From NCBI RefSeq assembly GCF_900129495.1, contig NZ_FQVX01000002.1:1116001-1180000 (forward strand): 64,000 bases of DNA. The letters are read 5' to 3'. The stretch is from Geodermatophilus nigrescens (GTDB lineage Bacteria; Actinomycetota; Actinomycetes; Mycobacteriales; Geodermatophilaceae). Position numbers and translations under genes: made by a program. Every line of letters begins with the position of its first letter. Positions within the stretch are counted from its first letter, which is position 1. Shown here one piece after another: positions 3,674-47,737 of this stretch. The notes under the pieces were generated by a model. That model saw only the letters and a list, made by a program, of their open reading frames with translations, had not been told where the DNA came from and made no database searches.

Positions 3674-3874
3674 GTGCACCCCCCGCTCGACCGCATGTCC
3701 CGCTCGATCTCCACCGGCCACCTGCTGGCCGACTGCGAGCGGTGGTGCCGCGACGTCCTCCCGCCGCGCGAGGCCTGGGTGCAGCGGACGGCGCCCGCGC
3801 GGAGCAACGTCACCTCGCTGCGGGACGCCGCGCAGCGCCTCCGCGAGGGGACGCAGCACCGCCTCGCCAGTTGA
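3674..3874 (+). CDS. Small hypothetical protein, 66 residues
   Basis: A GTG at 3674 is preceded by GGAAGG at a workable distance. The product has a hydrophilic, helix-rich sequence with LADCERWCRDVL near the middle (two Cys four residues apart) and ends with RLREGTQHRLAS. I do not recognise a family. The reading frame extends far upstream without a stop, but only this stretch looks coding. Its stop codon lies in the left arm of the long inverted repeat at 3871-3940. A longer antisense reading frame over the same bases looks like a shadow. Confidence 0.5.
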   Translation: MHPPLDRMSRSISTGHLLADCERWCRDVLPPREAWVQRTAPARSNVTSLRDAAQRLREGTQHRLAS

Positions 3875-3940
3875 TCATCGGATGCGTGCCGCCGACACGC
3901 GCGGACACGCCGGAGCGAGCGGCACACATCCGATGATCAA
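3871..3940. repeat. Long inverted repeat, 22-base arms
   Basis: Left arm 3871-3892 begins TTGATCATCGGATG; right arm 3919-3940 is its reverse complement except for one base, with a 26-base spacer. The arms begin at the stop codon of the upstream small gene. As RNA it would form a stable hairpin, so it could end transcription, but the AT-containing outer arm is unusual for this GC-rich sequence and looks more like a dispersed palindromic element. Only one copy is in the window. Confidence 0.8.
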
Positions 3941-4153
3941 CACGTAGGCCACCGCCGGCACCCGGGATTCACCCCGGCGCACGACGGGCAGCCACAGCCC
4001 GTGACCGGCACCGCGCGCTCCGCCTCCCGCCCGATGCCCGGCGTCACCGGCGTCGACGAGTCCGCCGGCGTCGACCCGGCCCGCACCGAGGTGCCCCGAC
4101 CCGGCGCCGTGCGCGTCGAGAGCCTGCGCTGGGGCGACGGCCGCGAGGCACCG

Positions 4154-40747: not shown

Positions 40748-42363
40748 CCGCTGGCGTGGGCGACGGGTTCGACGTCGTCGTCGTCGGGGCGGGTTCGGCC
40801 GGGTGCGCGCTGGCCGCCCGGCTGACCGAGGACCCCTCGGTGCGGGTGCTGCTGCTGGAGGCGGGCGGGTCCGACGACGTCCTCGAGGTGCAGATCCCGG
40901 CCGCGATGTACAAGGTCTGGCGCACCCGGCGGGACTGGAACTACACGACCGGGCCGCAGCCGGGCCTCGGCGGCCGGGAGCTGTTCTGGCCGCGCGGCAA
41001 GCTCCTGGGCGGGTCGTCGTCGATCAACGCGATGATCTACATCAGGGGTGCGGCCGCCGACTACGACGAGTGGGCGCAGCTGACGGGTGATCCGTCGTGG
41101 TCCCACGACGCGGTGCTGCCGCTGTTCCGCCGCATGGAGGACAACGCGCGCGGCGCCGACCGTTTCCACGGCGTCGGCGGGCCGCTGCGGGTGGAGGACC
41201 TGCGCTCGCCGCACCCGTGGACGCGGGCGGTGGTCGAATCGGCGGTCGCCGCCGGCCACCCGCGCAACGACGACTTCAACGGCGCCGCCCAGGAGGGCGT
41301 CGGGCAGTACCAGGTGACGCAGAAGCGGGGCCGGCGGTGGTCGGCCGCCGACGCGTACCTGCGCCCGGCGCTCGGCCGGCCGAACCTGACCGTGCTCACC
41401 GGTGCGCTCACCACCCGGGTGCTCGTCTCCGGCGGGCGGGCCACCGGCGTCGAGTACCGGCGCGGCGGGCAGGTGCACACCGCGCACGCGTCGGGCGAGG
41501 TGGTGCTCTGCGGCGGCGCGGTGAACTCGCCGCAGCTGCTCATGCTCTCGGGCATCGGGCCGGCCGCCCACCTGCGGGAGGTCGGCGTCGACGTCGTCCA
41601 CGACCTGCCCGGTGTCGGCGGCGGGCTGCAGGACCACCCGCTCGTGCCGGTCATCTGGGACGTGCGGTCCGGGAAGTCGCTGCTGCGGGCGGAGTCGCCG
41701 TCGGGCTACGCGCGGTGGTTCGGCGCCCGGCGCGGGCCGCTGTCGTCGAACCTGGCGGAGGCGGGGCTGTTCACCCGCTCGCGGCCGGACCTCGACCAGC
41801 CCGACCTGCAGTACCACTTCCTGCCGGTCAAGTTCTGGCGTCAGGCGGAGGTCGACCCCGACGTCGACGCGTTCACCGCGGCCGCCGTCCTGGTGCACGT
41901 GCACTCGCGCGGCTCGGTGCGGCTGCGCTCGGCCGACCCGACGTGGGCGCCGGCCATCGACGCCGGCTACCTCACCGACGAGCGGGACCTCGACGCGCTG
42001 GTCACCGGCGTGGAGAAGGCGCGGGAGATTGCGTCGGTCGGGCCTCTGGCGGAGGTGCTGGCCGGGGAGTGGTCACCGGGCGGGGCCGCGACGGGGCGCG
42101 AGGCGCTGCGGGCGAAGGTGCGGGAGACGCTCGAGTCGCTGTACCACCCGGTGTCCTCGTGCCGGATGGGCACCGACGACTCCTCGGTCGTGGATCCGCA
42201 GCTGCGCGTGCACGGCCTGTCCGGTCTGCGGGTGGTCGACGCCTCGGTGATGCCGACGCTGGTCCGCGGCAACACGAACGCGCCGACGATCATGATCGCC
42301 GAGCGCGCCGCCGACCTCCTGGCCGGCCGCGCCGTCGACCCGGCCCTCGCCGCCACCGCCTGA
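40744..42363 (+). CDS. GMC family FAD oxidoreductase (choline/alcohol dehydrogenase type)
   Basis: 539 residues from GTG 40744. FAD loop VVVGAGSAGCALAARL, then PRGKLLGGSSSINAMIYIRG, GGAVNSPQLLMLSGIGP and the C-terminal YHPVSSCRMGTDDSSVVD with active-site His and the last FAD segment RGNTNAPTIMIAERAAD: all GMC signatures at standard length. Related enzymes oxidise choline, polyethylene glycol or primary alcohols. Coupled by a four-base overlap to the aldehyde dehydrogenase. A repeat of the 22-base family starts 14 bases after the stop. Confidence 0.93.
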   Translation: MTAGVGDGFDVVVVGAGSAGCALAARLTEDPSVRVLLLEAGGSDDVLEVQIPAAMYKVWRTRRDWNYTTGPQPGLGGRELFWPRGKLLGGSSSINAMIYIRGAAADYDEWAQLTGDPSWSHDAVLPLFRRMEDNARGADRFHGVGGPLRVEDLRSPHPWTRAVVESAVAAGHPRNDDFNGAAQEGVGQYQVTQKRGRRWSAADAYLRPALGRPNLTVLTGALTTRVLVSGGRATGVEYRRGGQVHTAHASGEVVLCGGAVNSPQLLMLSGIGPAAHLREVGVDVVHDLPGVGGGLQDHPLVPVIWDVRSGKSLLRAESPSGYARWFGARRGPLSSNLAEAGLFTRSRPDLDQPDLQYHFLPVKFWRQAEVDPDVDAFTAAAVLVHVHSRGSVRLRSADPTWAPAIDAGYLTDERDLDALVTGVEKAREIASVGPLAEVLAGEWSPGGAATGREALRAKVRETLESLYHPVSSCRMGTDDSSVVDPQLRVHGLSGLRVVDASVMPTLVRGNTNAPTIMIAERAADLLAGRAVDPALAATA

Positions 42364-42376
42364 CCCGCCCGCGCGG

Positions 42377-42397
42377 GGCCTTTGTAGCGCTGATGGC
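42377..42397 (+). repeat. 22-base repeat family, copy 1
   Basis: Core CTTTGTAGCGCTGATGGC, preceded by GGC. Located 14 bases after the GMC gene and 42 bases before copy 2, in the same direction. The right end is less well conserved than in other copies. Confidence 0.8.
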
Positions 42398-42418
42398 ACC
42401 CGGGCGGCGGCCCAACTG

Positions 42419-42440
42419 GGCCTTTGTAGCGCTATTGGCC
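42419..42440 (+). repeat. 22-base repeat family, copy 2
   Basis: GGCC, then TTTGTAGCGCTATT, then GGCC. The CTA in it (42432-42434) is the TAG stop of the DUF559 gene on the minus strand. Confidence 0.9.
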
Positions 42441-43307
42441 CTCTCCGGCCGCCAGTGCTGCGCGGATGCGGGCGAGCAGGGCGTCGAGGTCGCGCATGTC
42501 CGCGGCGGTCACCCGGATCACCCGCCAGCCGGCCGCCCGGAGCCGGTCGAGCCGGTCGTCGTCCTTGGCCATCTGGTCGTCCTCGAAGTGGTGGGCGCCG
42601 TCGTACTCGATCGCGAGCCGCGCCTCCGGGAACGCGAGGTCGACTCGCGCGACGAACCGACCGTGGTGCTCGATCTCGTACTGCGGCACCGGCGTGAGCC
42701 CCGCGAGGACGAGACACACCCGCAGCCGGGACTCCTGCGGCGACTCGGCGGACGGGTCGACCAGCGGCGCCGCGCGACGCACCTTGCTCACGCCCCAGCG
42801 ACCGGCACCACGCTCGGCCATCCCGAACAGGTCCTCGCGCGTCAGGTGCTCGGCCCGGACCATCGCGTCGAGTGCCGCCACCGCCGTCGTCAGCGGTTCG
42901 AGCGCCATGACGTCCCACGCCGTCCGCGTCGCCGTCGCCACCGGGACGTCGTCCACGAGCCTGACGTCCTCCGGCAGCAACGTCGTGTGGTGGACGGCCA
43001 CTCCTCGAGGACCGCGCCACCGGATCGCCTCAGGGCAGAGCACGGTCACCGGGTCACCGGCCCTCGCGAACGGTGCGCCGTACCAGGCGGCTGCCGAGTG
43101 ACCGCCGATGGCGCAGCCGTCCGGCAGCACGAGTGCGGCCCCGCGGCAGCGCAGGCCGTGGTCGACGGGGAGGCCCGGGTCGGCGTAGACGCCCTGGACG
43201 AGCCTGCGGTAGCTGCGGGTGCGGAGCTGTTTTCGCGTCAGGAGCCCCTCGGCGATGGCGTGGCTGCCGACGAAGACCCCGGGGAGGAGACGACGGTGGG
43301 TGGTCAC
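42432..43307 (-). CDS. DUF559/Vsr-like endonuclease-fold protein with AbiEi-like N-terminus
   Basis: 291 residues from GTG 43307. The N-terminal ~70 residues look like the winged-helix part of AbiEi-type antitoxins (GLLTRKQLRTRSYRRLVQGVYAD). The C-terminal ~100 residues are a Vsr/PD-(D/E)xK-like domain: VARVDLAFPEARLAIEYDGA with acidic residues at the expected places, then RLDRLRAAGWRVIRVTAADM. Many paralogs of this build occur in actinobacterial genomes; no biological role is proven. Here the gene lies between inverted pairs of 22-base repeats, and its stop codon is inside one of them. Confidence 0.85.
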   Translation of the reverse strand: MTTHRRLLPGVFVGSHAIAEGLLTRKQLRTRSYRRLVQGVYADPGLPVDHGLRCRGAALVLPDGCAIGGHSAAAWYGAPFARAGDPVTVLCPEAIRWRGPRGVAVHHTTLLPEDVRLVDDVPVATATRTAWDVMALEPLTTAVAALDAMVRAEHLTREDLFGMAERGAGRWGVSKVRRAAPLVDPSAESPQESRLRVCLVLAGLTPVPQYEIEHHGRFVARVDLAFPEARLAIEYDGAHHFEDDQMAKDDDRLDRLRAAGWRVIRVTAADMRDLDALLARIRAALAAGEGQ

Positions 43308-43362
43308 CCCGGCAGCCTCACGGGCCGGACGGCCACCACCGGGCGTCGTCCACAGGTAACAG

Positions 43363-43384
43363 GGCCAACAGCGCTACAAAGGCC
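43363..43384 (-). repeat. 22-base repeat family, copy 3
   Basis: Minus strand: GGCC, TTTGTAGCGCTGTT, GGCC. It lies 56 bases upstream of the DUF559 start, in inverted direction relative to copies 1 and 2. Confidence 0.9.
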
Positions 43385-43404
43385 GACCTGGGGACGGCCG
43401 AGAG

Positions 43405-43426
43405 GGCCGATAGCGCTACAAAGGCC
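43405..43426 (-). repeat. 22-base repeat family, copy 4
   Basis: Minus strand: GGCC, TTTGTAGCGCTATC, GGCC. Same 42-base distance from copy 3 as between copies 1 and 2. It ends five bases from the stop of the MFS gene. Confidence 0.9.
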
Positions 43427-43430
43427 CGGC

Positions 43431-44747
43431 TCAGCCGTGGGTGGTCGCTGCGGAGGCAGTGGTCGGCTCGGTGGGCGTCGCGGGCGGGGCGTCCGGGGCC
43501 GGGCGACGGCGGATCGAGATCGACAGCGCCGCGGCCACCAGGCACAGCGCGCCCGCGCCGAACCAGGCCAGGTCGTAGGAGCCGGTGACGTCGCGGATCA
43601 CGCCGCCACCGAACGCGGCCGCCGCCGACCCGACCTGGTGCGAGGCGAACACCCAGCCGAACACCACCGGCGCCCGCGCGCCGAAGTGCTCGCGGCACAG
43701 CGCCAGCGTCGGCGGCACGGTGGCCACCCAGTCCAGGCCGTAGAAGACGATGAACGCGATCATGCTGACGTGCAGGTCCGGCCCGAACAGGGGCGGCAGC
43801 AGGAACAGCGAGAAGCCGCGCAGCGCGTAGTAGGCCAGCAGCAGCACCCGCGGGTCGACGCGGTCGGTCAGCCAGCCGGAGAACACGGTGCCGGCGATGT
43901 CGAAGATCCCGACGACCGCCAGCAGCGACGCCGCCGTCGTCACCGGCATGCCGTGGTCGTGCGCGGCCGGGATGAAGTGCGGCTGCACCAGCCCGTTGGT
44001 CGACGCGCCGCAGATGAAGAAGCCGGCTGCCAGCAGCCAGAACGGCCGCGACCGCGCCGCGAGCGCCAGGCCGGCCAGCGCCGCGCGGGCCGCGCCGGTG
44101 CGCACCGGGTCGACGTCGTCGGCAGCGGTGCCGCCGTAGGGGACGGCGCCCACGTCGCGCGGCCGGTCGCGCAGCAGCCACAGCACCAGCGGGACGACGG
44201 CGAGCGCGGCCGCCGTGGTCCCCAGTGACGCCGCCCGCCACCCGCCGTCGGTCTCCGCCACCGCCGCGACGACAGGCAGGAACACCAGCTGCCCGGTCGC
44301 GCCGCCGGCGGTGAGGATGCCGCTGACCAGCCCGCGCCGGGCCACGAACCACCGCCCGGTCACCGTGGCCACCAGCGACAGCGCCATGGAGCCCGTGCCC
44401 AGCCCGACCGCGAGGCCCCACAGCAGCACCAGTTGCCAGCTCGCCGTCATGAACACCGTCAGCCCGCTGCCGACGGCGGTGAGCAGCAGCGCGCCGACGA
44501 CGACCCGCCGGATGCCGAACCGCTCCATCAGCGCGGCGGCGAACGGCGCGGTCAGCCCGTAGAGCGCCATGTTCACCGCGACGGCGGCCGAGATCGTCGA
44601 GACCGACCAGCCGAACTCCTCGCGCAGCGGGTCGATGAGCACGCCGGGCACCGCGCGGAAGGCCGCGGCGCCGACCAGCGCCAGGAAGGTCACCGCGGCC
44701 ACCCACCAGGCGGGGTGGATCCGGCGGCGGGGCACGGTCGTCGTCAC
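43431..44747 (-). CDS. MFS transporter
   Basis: 438 residues from GTG 44747. Twelve hydrophobic helices in two halves joined by a cytoplasmic loop (RDRPRDVGAVPYGG ... RTGAARAAL). The motif between helices 2 and 3 is ERFGIRRVVVGALLL, the drug/anion-type MFS loop. The second half contains CGASTNGLVQPHFIPAAHDHG, which resembles monocarboxylate/oxalate-type MFS proteins (MCT-like). Substrate unknown. It diverges from the AraC-type regulator gene, a natural candidate controller. Confidence 0.9.
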   Translation of the reverse strand: MTTTVPRRRIHPAWWVAAVTFLALVGAAAFRAVPGVLIDPLREEFGWSVSTISAAVAVNMALYGLTAPFAAALMERFGIRRVVVGALLLTAVGSGLTVFMTASWQLVLLWGLAVGLGTGSMALSLVATVTGRWFVARRGLVSGILTAGGATGQLVFLPVVAAVAETDGGWRAASLGTTAAALAVVPLVLWLLRDRPRDVGAVPYGGTAADDVDPVRTGAARAALAGLALAARSRPFWLLAAGFFICGASTNGLVQPHFIPAAHDHGMPVTTAASLLAVVGIFDIAGTVFSGWLTDRVDPRVLLLAYYALRGFSLFLLPPLFGPDLHVSMIAFIVFYGLDWVATVPPTLALCREHFGARAPVVFGWVFASHQVGSAAAAFGGGVIRDVTGSYDLAWFGAGALCLVAAALSISIRRRPAPDAPPATPTEPTTASAATTHG

Positions 44748-44810
44748 GAGCGGAGAGCATGACCGACCGCTGGCTGCAACGACCAGTGGCCCGACGGCCA
44801 ACACGTGCAA

Positions 44811-44906
44811 GGATCCGGCCATGAGACGAGGGCCGCGCCCGGCCGTGACAGCAGGTACGGGTCCGGCCATGGACCGAGGCCCGCGTCCGGCCGTGACCGC
44901 CGGCCC
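44811..44906. repeat. 48-base tandem duplication at the AraC-type start
   Basis: Units 44811-44858 and 44859-44906 each contain GG(A/G)TCCGGCC followed by ATG and code for a RGPRPAVTAG block. This gives two candidate starts (44821, 44869) and a further GTG at 44893. Confidence 0.85.
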
Positions 44907-45879
44907 CGCCCGGCACGAGGTCGCCGTCCTCGCGCTCCCCGGCACCATCGCCTTCGAGCTCGGCCTCCCCCACCGCCTGCTGGGCAGCGCCGTCGACGCC
45001 GACGAGCGCCCGCTCTACCGGGTGCGGGTGGCCACCCTCGACGGCGGTCCGGTGCGCACGTCGGCCGGCTACTCGATCCAGCCGGAGCACGACGCCACGC
45101 TGCTGGAGACCGCGCGCACCGTGGTCGTCCCCGGAGTCCAGGGCGGCCCGGCGATGAGCGACGGCCAGGTCCCGGCCGACCTCGCCGCCGCGCTCCGGGC
45201 CGCGGCGGCGCACGCCCGCCTGCTCTCGATCTGCACCGGCGCGTTCGTGCTCGCCGCGGCCGGGCTGCTCGACGGCCGGCCGGCCACCACGCACTGGATG
45301 CACACGCAGGCCTTCGCCCGGCACTTCCCCCGGGTGCGGCTGGACCCCGACGTCCTGTTCGTCGACGACGGCGACGTGCTCACCAGCGCGGGCAACGCGG
45401 CCGGCATCGACCTGCTGCTGCACCTCGTCCGGCGCGACCACGGCAGCGCGGTGGCCAACCGGGTGGCGCGGCGCAACGTCGTCGCGCCGTGGCGGGAGGG
45501 CGGGCAGTCGCAGTTCGTCGAGCGGCCGCTGCCCGAGACCGGCGACGCCGGCACCGCCGCCACCCGCGCCTGGGCGCTCGAGCGCCTCGGCGAGCCGCTG
45601 ACCCTCGCCGGGCTCGCCGCGCACGCCCGGATGAGCGTGCGCACCTTCACCCGGCGCTTCCGCGAGGAGACCGGCCAGTCGCCGCAGCGCTGGCTGGCCG
45701 CGCAGCGGATCGCACTGGCCCGCCGGCTGCTGGAGTCCACCGACGCCTCGGTCGACCGGGTGGCCGCCGAGGCCGGCTTCGGGACGACGGCGTCGCTGCG
45801 GGCGCACCTGCGCGCCTCGATCGGCGTCCCGCCGGGCGCCTACCGCCGCACCTACCGGGGTGCCGGCGTGGGCCGATAG
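44821..45879 (+). CDS. AraC-family regulator with DJ-1/PfpI-like N-terminal domain (FtrA type)
   Basis: 352 residues from ATG 44821, the start with AAGGA upstream; 44869 or GTG 44893 would remove 16 or 24 residues and fit the family length better. The amidotransferase-like domain runs from HEVAVLALPGTIAFELG through LLSICTGAFVLAAAGLLDG (Cys at the elbow) and TSAGNAAGIDLLLHLV. The two helix-turn-helix motifs are at ARMSVRTFTRRFREETGQSP and VDRVAAEAGFGTTASLRAHL. The N-terminus is a tandem duplicate. The stop TAG is inside copy 5 of the 22-base repeat. Probably regulates the divergent MFS gene. Confidence 0.88.
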   Translation: MRRGPRPAVTAGTGPAMDRGPRPAVTAGPARHEVAVLALPGTIAFELGLPHRLLGSAVDADERPLYRVRVATLDGGPVRTSAGYSIQPEHDATLLETARTVVVPGVQGGPAMSDGQVPADLAAALRAAAAHARLLSICTGAFVLAAAGLLDGRPATTHWMHTQAFARHFPRVRLDPDVLFVDDGDVLTSAGNAAGIDLLLHLVRRDHGSAVANRVARRNVVAPWREGGQSQFVERPLPETGDAGTAATRAWALERLGEPLTLAGLAAHARMSVRTFTRRFREETGQSPQRWLAAQRIALARRLLESTDASVDRVAAEAGFGTTASLRAHLRASIGVPPGAYRRTYRGAGVGR

Positions 45880-45892
45880 CGCTACAAAGGCC
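45871..45892 (-). repeat. 22-base repeat family, copy 5
   Basis: Identical to copy 4 (minus strand: GGCC, TTTGTAGCGCTATC, GGCC). It includes the stop codon (45877-45879) of the AraC-type gene. Stands alone, 2.4 kb from copy 4. Confidence 0.9.
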
Positions 45893-46144
45893 ACCCGGAC
45901 GGGGCGGGTGTGACGCGCGCCTCCCCCGCCCAGGGCAGGTCCGGCGGCCGCGTCTGGTTGAGTGGGACGTACCGGCGCCGCCCTCGCTCATCCGGAGCTG
46001 CAGGACTCGACGTCGGGCTGGAGCAGCGCCACCGAGGCGCGCCCGGCTGTCCGACGTCGCCGACGGCGCGACCCGCCCCCCGACCGGGGCCGGCGTGCGC
46101 CCGCGGTGGCCGAGGACGGCGACCCGAGCACCACCGAGGAACCC
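45893..46144 (+). other. Long leader region before the DEAD-box helicase
   Basis: About 250 bases without a convincing gene. A GTTGAGTGGGACGTACC stretch at 45958-45974 could hold promoter elements. DEAD-box genes often have long, structured leaders for cold or growth control; only the length supports that here. Confidence 0.35.
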
Positions 46145-47737
46145 ATGACCTCCCCGCAGTCCTCTCCTGCCGCCGGCACGTCCCGGCCCCGCCGCCGTCG
46201 CGGCGGCCGCGGCCGCGGCTCCGGCGCCGGCACCGGCGCCGCCCAGAACAGCCCGGTGCAGGCCCCCACCCAGACCCCGGCGGCGACGCCCGTGCTCCCG
46301 GCCGGCGACGTCGCCACCGTGCTGCCCACCGACGCCACCTTCGCCGAGCTCGGCGTGCCCGCCCCGCTGGTCGAGGTGCTCACCGCCAGCGGCATCACCG
46401 CGCCGTTCCCCATCCAGGTCGCGACGCTGCCCGACTCCCTGGCCGGCCGCGACGTGCTCGGCCGCGGTCGCACCGGCTCGGGCAAGACCATCGCCTTCGC
46501 CCTCCCGCTGGTGGCCCGCCTGGCCGCCTCCACCACGCGGCGCCAGGCGCGCAAGCCGCGCGCGCTGGTGCTCGTGCCGACCCGCGAGCTCGCCAACCAG
46601 GTGCTGGCCACCGTCGAGCCGCTCGCCACGGCCCTCGGCCTGCGCTCCACCGTCGTCTTCGGCGGCGTCGGCCAGAACCCGCAGGTGCAGGCCCTGGCCG
46701 CAGGCGTCGACGTGCTCGTCGCCTGCCCCGGCCGGCTCGAGGACCTCATCGGGCAGGGGCACGCCGACCTGTCCGCCGTCGAGGTCACCGTGCTCGACGA
46801 GGCCGACCACATGGCCGACCTGGGCTTCCTGCCCGGCGTGAAGCGGCTGCTCGACCGCACCCCGCAGGGCGGCCAGCGGCTGCTGTTCTCCGCCACGCTG
46901 GACAACGGCGTCGACGTGCTGGTCAAGCGCTACCTGTCGCAGCCGGTGACCCACTCGGTCGACCCGGCCGTCGCGCCGGTGGCCACGATGACCCACCACG
47001 TGTTCCAGGTCAGCGCCGCCGACAAGGCCGAGGTCGTGCGCCAGCTCGCCTCCGGGCTCGGCCGCAGCGTGCTGTTCACCCGCACCAAGCACCAGGCCAA
47101 GAAGCTCGCCAAGCAGCTGACCGCCGCCGGCATCCCGGCCGTCGACCTGCACGGCAACCTCAGCCAGAACGCCCGCGAGCGCAACCTCGAGGCGTTCAGC
47201 ACCGGCGGCACCCGCGTGCTGTGCGCGACCGACATCGCCGCCCGCGGCATCCACGTCGACGACGTCTCGCTGGTCGTGCACGTCGACCCGCCGACCGAGC
47301 ACAAGGCCTACCTGCACCGCTCCGGCCGCACGGCCCGCGCCGGTGCCGGCGGCACGGTGGTCACGGTGTCGACGCCGGACCAGAACGGCGAGGTCCGCAC
47401 GCTGACCCGCCAGGCCGGCATCACGCCGATCGTCAGCCAGGTGCGCCCCGGCGCGGAGCAGATCACCGGGCTCACCGGCCCGGCCGCGCCGTACGTCGAG
47501 CCGGCCCCGGCGCCCGCCCCTCAGCCGCAGGGCCAGGGCGGCGGCCGACGCCGCCGCGGCGGGTCCGGTGGCGGCAGCGGGACGGCGACGGCGTCGTCGT
47601 CCACGAAGGCGACCGGGAGCCGCGGCCAGTCCCGCAGCCCGCAGGGCCCGGCGCGCACCCGTGCCGAGCTCGCCGCGCGGGCCGGCTCGCACTCCGCGGC
47701 GTCGTTCAGCGGCCGTTCGCGGCGCGGCGGCCGCTGA
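46145..47737 (+). CDS. DEAD-box RNA helicase
   Basis: 530 residues from ATG 46145 with GAGG five bases upstream. A disordered basic N-terminus (RPRRRRGGRGRGSG) is followed by the two RecA domains: Q-motif FAELGVPAPLVEVLTASGI, GRGRTGSGKTIAFALPL (motif I), PTRELANQ, TVLDEADHMADLGFL (DEAD), LLFSATL (SAT), RVLCATDIAARGIHVDDVSL and YLHRSGRTARAG (motif VI). The C-terminal tail is Gly/Arg/Ser-rich, for RNA contacts. It unwinds structured RNA during ribosome assembly or cold stress. Motif I reads GRGRTGSGKT where most have AxTGSGKT. Confidence 0.95.
   Translation: MTSPQSSPAAGTSRPRRRRGGRGRGSGAGTGAAQNSPVQAPTQTPAATPVLPAGDVATVLPTDATFAELGVPAPLVEVLTASGITAPFPIQVATLPDSLAGRDVLGRGRTGSGKTIAFALPLVARLAASTTRRQARKPRALVLVPTRELANQVLATVEPLATALGLRSTVVFGGVGQNPQVQALAAGVDVLVACPGRLEDLIGQGHADLSAVEVTVLDEADHMADLGFLPGVKRLLDRTPQGGQRLLFSATLDNGVDVLVKRYLSQPVTHSVDPAVAPVATMTHHVFQVSAADKAEVVRQLASGLGRSVLFTRTKHQAKKLAKQLTAAGIPAVDLHGNLSQNARERNLEAFSTGGTRVLCATDIAARGIHVDDVSLVVHVDPPTEHKAYLHRSGRTARAGAGGTVVTVSTPDQNGEVRTLTRQAGITPIVSQVRPGAEQITGLTGPAAPYVEPAPAPAPQPQGQGGGRRRRGGSGGGSGTATASSSTKATGSRGQSRSPQGPARTRAELAARAGSHSAASFSGRSRRGGR

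Follow-up and report, generated by a model that had tools for sequence, protein, structure and literature searches.

Dispersed REP-like palindromes bracketing a probable cognate AbiEi-Vsr-like nuclease gene in Geodermatophilus nigrescens and its relatives

Introduction

How REP palindromes spread and persist is an open question that has been studied mainly through one enzyme family. As outlined in sections of PMC2817692, the REPtron consists of a RAYT (TnpA-REP) gene and its REPs, short palindromes lying outside genes. Each RAYT gene is flanked by inverted copies of its own palindrome, the REPs are dispersed, species-specific and arranged in mosaics, and their copy number tends to follow the presence of the RAYT gene. 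Here we describe a locus of the soil actinobacterium Geodermatophilus nigrescens, located in a stretch of 64,000 nucleotides (the window), whose features agree with the RAYT and REP features given in sections of PMC2817692 and PMC8266576, except for the enzyme. While that of the REPtron is a Y1 HUH transposase, the one encoded here joins an AbiEi-like part to a Vsr/EDxHD-like domain. Furthermore, REPtrons are known in Proteobacteria whereas this unit is actinobacterial, and REPs usually occur in more than 100 copies whereas the palindromes described here number 9-68 in the bracketed genomes counted.

Both parts of this enzyme resemble proteins of other systems. The C-terminal domain has, in a structural model, the same fold as Vsr and the EDxHD homing endonuclease I-Bth0305I, from which the present case differs by the dispersed palindromes beside the gene and by the AbiEi-like N-terminal part. 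The latter (about residues 1-183) has the same fold as AbiEi, the antitoxin of the type IV toxin-antitoxin system AbiE, and as Rv2827c; however, it is here fused to a nuclease, and an AbiEii toxin gene is absent among the direct neighbours. Antitoxins of the AbiEi type bind to inverted repeats located in the promoter of their own gene. TnsA of Tn7 is a PD-(D/E)XK nuclease acting in transposition, and the model bears a weak fold likeness to it (1f1z, Z 6.2, a range where chance is possible). In contrast to Tn7, the ends here are tiny palindromes, and TnsB/C partners are absent among the adjacent genes.

The bracketed gene of the window

The repeat, 22 bases long and assigned to a family that we call P1, brackets a single gene. 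Copies 1 (42377-42398) and 2 (42419-42440, identical to the consensus) lie on the plus strand, oriented towards the gene, and copies 3 (43363-43384) and 4 (43405-43426) lie on the minus strand, both pairs having a 42-base period. The gene itself (42432-43307, minus strand) encodes a 291-aa nuclease with AbiEi-like and DUF559/Vsr-like parts, and its TAG stop codon (42432-42434) falls inside copy 2. The first-pass annotation had described four copies with these orientations and this period, around one gene ending in copy 2, and all of this was found in place. Between the palindrome and the start codon lies the conserved element CTGTGGACGAC (43345-43355, minus strand). In 38 of 60 homologs, compared to 2 of 389 control genes, the motif CTGTGGAYRRC is found 42-70 bases upstream of the matched start, and its reverse strand resembles a DnaA box. 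Direct neighbours of the nuclease gene encode an MFS transporter and an oxidoreductase (the latter named by eye), and no intron or mismatch-repair context is seen at the gene. A scan of 41800-46500 against Rfam gave nothing relevant (best E 0.73, far below gathering).

The 14-base core of the repeat has five matches in the window at up to two mismatches, where 0.01 would be expected. The fifth (45876-45889, minus strand) belongs to a dispersed P1 copy (45871-45892, minus strand) at the 3′ end of a gene (44569-45879) that is AraC-like as judged by eye. Hereafter G-codes denote genomes, G000 being that of the window, and L-numbers denote loci. P1 copies supply the TAG stop of two window genes, the nuclease gene and that at 44569-45879, and of the G019 ortholog. 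Elsewhere in the window, at 3870-3941 and about 38 kb from the DUF559 gene, stands a 72-base hairpin of the family that goes with the L064 paralog.

Domains and fold of the nuclease

By profile, the N-terminal part is AbiEi-like (PADLOC AbiEi, E 2e-07, residues 26-168) and the C-terminal part matches DUF559 (Pfam, E 1.7e-06, above its cut-off). In the Pfam scan, with E up to 1, DUF559 alone exceeded its cut-off, MTES_1575, DUF2726, PvuRts1I-like and RAP stayed below theirs, and no Y1 transposase domain was found. An AlphaFold2 model (65 sequences, pLDDT 93.7) aligns with I-Bth0305I (3r3p; Z 13.4, 95 residues, rmsd 2.3), Vsr (1cw0; Z 10.8, 98 residues, rmsd 2.4), AbiEi of S. agalactiae (6y8q; Z 10.4, 171 residues, rmsd 6.5) and Rv2827c (1zel; Z 7.3). 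Foldseek alone returned no match at E ≤0.001, its best being Rv2827c (1.7e-03) and 3r3p (2.0e-03). Conservation of 90% or more is seen at E192, D223, H240 and D249, a series that by analogy would fit a nuclease site of the EDxHD type. The earlier proposal of a Vsr/PD-(D/E)XK-like protein is thus borne out by the DUF559 match and by the Vsr/I-Bth0305I fold of the model. Matches to TALE repeats in a PDB sequence search were dismissed as composition artefacts, with zero stretches passing on their own, and a reading as a defence system was likewise rejected, the PADLOC matches being at domain level.

Matched palindromes beside homologous genes

Relatives of the protein (E up to 1e-10) are present in 54 of 61 genomes, the own genome included. 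For 12 close orthologs, with that of the window among them, the flanks were read, and most of these genes have palindromes close to either end, with a sequence that differs by species. Bracketing was scored as the best match between the 250 bases upstream and the 250 bases downstream, a score of at least 15 counting as a pass. From 72 named loci, two with too little flank were removed to leave 70, and 12 partial homologs were set aside to leave 58 full-length ones. Matched flanks were found in either direction in 49 of these 58 (43 inverted and 43 direct, as a palindrome matches in both), as against 6 of 454 other genes of the same loci (1 inverted, 5 direct). Over all 70 loci, 45 pass in the inverted and 44 in the direct comparison. 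Nine of the 58 lack matched flanks at 250 bases; at a failing locus of G. saharensis (G004), the stop-side copies lie about 520 bases off, outside the 250 scored. A further set of 25 loci, in part from the same species, gave 15 passes. The number of copies per side of the gene ranges from 1 to 3.

Outside the family, bracketed homologs were found in Pseudonocardia, Mycolicibacterium, Mycobacterium yunnanensis, Hoyosella, Lolliginicoccus, Amnibacterium, Agromyces and Leucobacter, and the failing full-length loci there are one of Hoyosella and two of Leucobacter. The bracket hence recurs across species and genera. A link between repeat and gene had been suspected from the window, and it is upheld both by the 49 bracketed homologs set against six other genes and by the copy number of the P1′ pattern, which follows the bracket as described below. 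At locus L119 of Pseudonocardia lacus (1916-2761), the homolog is preceded by a palindrome-like stretch of 65 bases, which is a strong match to the downstream flank whether compared direct or inverted.

The own genome holds eight relatives, counting the window's gene. None of the other seven adjoins a P1 copy; the flanks of five score at least 15, each with a different repeat, and L062 and L063 fail. Palindrome families of these paralogs were followed into other genomes by fetching 14 regions, seven chosen for same-family copies 0.8-1.7 kb apart and seven around other copies. Six of the former seven hold a DUF559 gene, with copies on both sides in all six, and the remaining eight of the 14 hold none. 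L066-type palindromes bracket the L066 ortholog in five further genomes at 64-77% identity (in G006 the match covers only residues 166-265), and L064-type hairpins bracket the L064 ortholog in G003 at 71% identity. The L064-type pattern is unspecific at three mismatches, with matches in all 37 genomes and up to 3 for the control, and it was used for G003 only, a genome in which many close copies form inverted pairs.

Dispersal of the palindromes within the genome

In the own genome (4.74 Mb, 11 contigs), GGCCTTTGTAGCGCTATTGGCC has 32 copies at up to three mismatches and the reversed control pattern has 0. As these copies lie mostly outside genes, the repeat is a dispersed one as well as the end of a unit. 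According to a rough ORF call, 19 of 22 listed P1 copies (bracket copies included) are outside genes and 3 inside; of the 19, 7 are flanked by two gene ends, 8 by an end and a start, and 4 by two starts. No clear excess at gene 3′ ends is seen, since the 15 of 22 copies adjoining at least one gene end are about what random intergenic sites give. A CRISPR-like reading was discarded, as each site has few copies and the palindromes are scattered individually.

These positions bear on whether the palindromes are operators, in which case the AbiEi-like domain would bind them and control its own gene as well as others through the dispersed copies. Such a regulon would suit the AbiEi-type fold and the AbiEi profile matches, the palindromes upstream of most homologs, and the copies that lie between two starts or between an end and a start. 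However, the matched repeat is found downstream as well as upstream, copies between two gene ends have no promoter to act on and so count against operators, and corresponding sites in relatives are empty or hold another family (see below). We consider this explanation unlikely.

The P1 element consists of an outer stem and a conserved loop, the loop being conserved along with the stem within a genome; in G004 copies the outer pair is often T-A, not G-C. In REPs, one end of the palindrome reportedly bears a tag, GTAG or CGTC. In P1, GTAG sits in the loop and no constant tag is visible by eye at the foot. Side-by-side palindromes form mosaics at three places in G000 (C4:58622-58735, C4:146321-146407 and C5:28327-28470), with P1 beside P3 and, in two of the three, an L066-type palindrome, an arrangement similar to BIMEs. 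The L066-type palindrome is itself dispersed in G000, with 17 pattern matches. Same-direction P1′ neighbours in G000, G004, G013 and G019 are spaced 29-33, 42-45, 64-65 or 86 bases apart. For 23 such values, read by hand from part of the copies with one inverted pair excluded, the best period is 11.2, and neither null reached this degree of clustering in 5000 trials. This periodicity may be the source of the 42-base period on both sides of the window's gene.

Copy number and the bracketing gene

The patterns P1′, P2 and P3 were counted in 37 related genomes. P1′ matches number 68 in G004, 47 in G013, 43 in G012, 31 in G000 and 9 in G019 (control 0; a few fully palindromic copies are counted on both strands), followed by 7 in G029, 5 in G017, 2 in G001, 1 each in G030 and G035, and 0 in 27 genomes. 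The top five are the five genomes whose ortholog is P1′-flanked, on both sides in four of them and clearly on one side only in G013, where the upstream copies have decayed to 5-8 mismatches.

P2 matches number 55 in G010, 27 in G022, 23 in G001, 16 in G020 and 9 in G018 (control 0), with 2 each in G017, G030 and G035, 1 in G014 and 0 in 28 genomes. P2 brackets the gene in G018 and G022, and a P2 variant does so in G020. In G001, P2 stands on both sides of a gene copy from which residues 133-238, the greater part of the nuclease half and including E192 and D223, are missing. G010 has 55 P2 copies (11 exact), yet P2 is absent from every DUF559 locus read there, 5 out of 8; its P2 is either an orphan family or has its cognate at another locus. 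P3 has 10 copies in G008, 4 of them at the bracketed gene, and is commoner in G013 (38), G012 (27), G016 (21) and G026 (13), with 0-2 matches for the control pattern. In G012, G013 and G016, the DUF559 locus with the best match, one per genome, is not P3-bracketed. The rule that abundance follows the gene is clear for P1′, holds mostly for P2 with G010 as the exception, and does not hold for P3. Dispersal is thus shown for several families in Geodermatophilaceae, and the copy-number link for P1.

Turnover at homologous sites

Three of five typed sites were aligned with their counterparts in relatives (L005, L001 and L016; L020 and L017 were left out). The convergent junction L005 holds P1 in G000, P2 in G010, an L067-type palindrome in G004 (by eye) and another sequence in G019, and G002 and G006 have almost nothing between the genes. 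L001 holds two P1 copies in G000, a third type in G010 and G007, one copy of this third type in G002, and the L067 type in G019. L016 holds P1 in G000, P2 in G010 and another hairpin in G019, and has no recognisable palindrome in G002, G004, G006 and G007. Since the same sites are filled, empty or occupied by another family in relatives, the palindromes are gained and lost at fixed positions. The empty sites found in this way (L005, L016) are for lone palindromes only.

Turnover also bears on the idea that the palindromes are bidirectional transcription terminators under ordinary selection, which flank this gene by chance. It is true that several P1 copies immediately follow a stop codon, as at C3:315735, where a copy lies between two convergent stops, and that six tested sequences fold into hairpins of −11 to −58 kcal/mol. 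However, a terminator would hardly explain why the loop is kept with the stem within a genome when a relative can have another family at that site. Neighbouring genes seldom have matched repeats on both sides, and the pairing with one protein family is left unexplained, and we regard this idea as very unlikely.

The gene itself is present or absent at a syntenic site, as the first-pass annotation had anticipated: an intact nuclease gene adjoins the MFS gene in 6 of 25 genomes and none was found there in the other 19. Decayed repeats and a gene fragment remain in G017, the oxidoreductase gene directly follows the MFS gene in G020 (DNA read by eye), and the other 17 have no DUF559 match within 1500 bases. 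Single linkage of near genes sorts 44 Geodermatophilaceae loci into 11 neighbourhoods, the largest comprising 13 and 10 loci, and within large groups the neighbour genes are common while the palindromes differ. Among 36 loci, the upstream flank is closer to its own downstream flank (median score 21) than to the upstream flanks of other species in its neighbourhood (median 10, 129 pairs); the corresponding downstream comparison (median 24) is confounded by coding sequence. A test for concerted evolution gave a pooled p of 0.036, with two groups (of 4 and 3 loci) going the opposite way. These sequence comparisons are suggestive of a gene that stays in place while its palindromes change together.

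A classical mobile unit with compound inverted ends, in which lone palindromes would be solo ends, was the original proposal for this locus, in the form of a self-contained unit of about 1.05 kb. The inward-pointing pairs on both sides, the 19 genomes lacking an intact gene beside MFS and the spread of 44 homologs over 11 neighbourhoods would all be in keeping with it. This part of the first-pass annotation is not supported, as palindromes are scattered where the gene is lacking, the genome yielded no further copy of the whole unit, and large groups share neighbours but carry different palindromes. The variable number of copies per side argues in the same direction, which makes a mobile unit of this kind quite unlikely.

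A proposed cognate nuclease

The explanation that we favour, and hold to be reasonably probable, is that the palindromes form a REP-like family which the cognate AbiEi-Vsr nuclease binds and probably also spreads or homogenises. Recognition of its repeats by the protein is likely, as the first-pass annotation had supposed. Binding of the cognate palindrome would fall to the AbiEi-like N-terminal part and its nicking to the Vsr/EDxHD-like domain at the C-terminus, perhaps when the palindrome forms a hairpin or cruciform in the course of replication. A nick, or an attack on hairpins in replication, seems likelier, since double-strand cuts at 30-68 chromosomal sites would be dangerous. Through repair or strand transfer, the palindrome could subsequently be copied to intergenic sites elsewhere or overwrite older palindromes. 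Gene and palindrome would diverge together, so that each paralog lineage comes to own a family of its own.

It could also be supposed that a HUH RAYT encoded elsewhere in the genome spreads the palindromes and that the nuclease gene merely travels along as a passenger. In Proteobacteria, REPs are associated with enzymes of this kind, as stated in sections of PMC2817692; however, palindromes specific to a gene lineage in many species are not expected of a passenger, and we find this most improbable. With the cognate nuclease as the preferred agent, the unit would work like a REPtron and is not a REPtron by homology.

In a wider and more tentative form, which we put forward as possible rather than probable, actinobacterial genomes would hold several palindrome families, each written and rewritten by its own AbiEi-Vsr nuclease, in a REP system whose origin is separate from that of HUH transposases, through nicking and copy-over (homing-like conversion) at intergenic sites. 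Among the matches listed in a search of open-licence papers by titles and the beginnings of abstracts, no link of DUF559 or AbiEi proteins to dispersed palindromes was found, and passages of PMC1189080 do not mention DUF559. The matched repeats beside most of the homologs that could be scored suggest a pairing of such a repeat with its own enzyme that has so far gone unrecognised.

Implications

With a second nuclease family that is unrelated to the first and yet has this anatomy, the spread and persistence of REP palindromes become a question that can be tested by comparison. As the anatomy is the same and the enzyme unrelated, the common factor would be the palindrome and the bracket, not HUH chemistry. 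If the wider form holds true, nucleases that come and go would lead to the replacement of whole sets of hairpins. The finding suggests what many actinobacterial DUF559/MTES_1575 genes may do, and a possible reason why intergenic hairpins are species-specific in these species.
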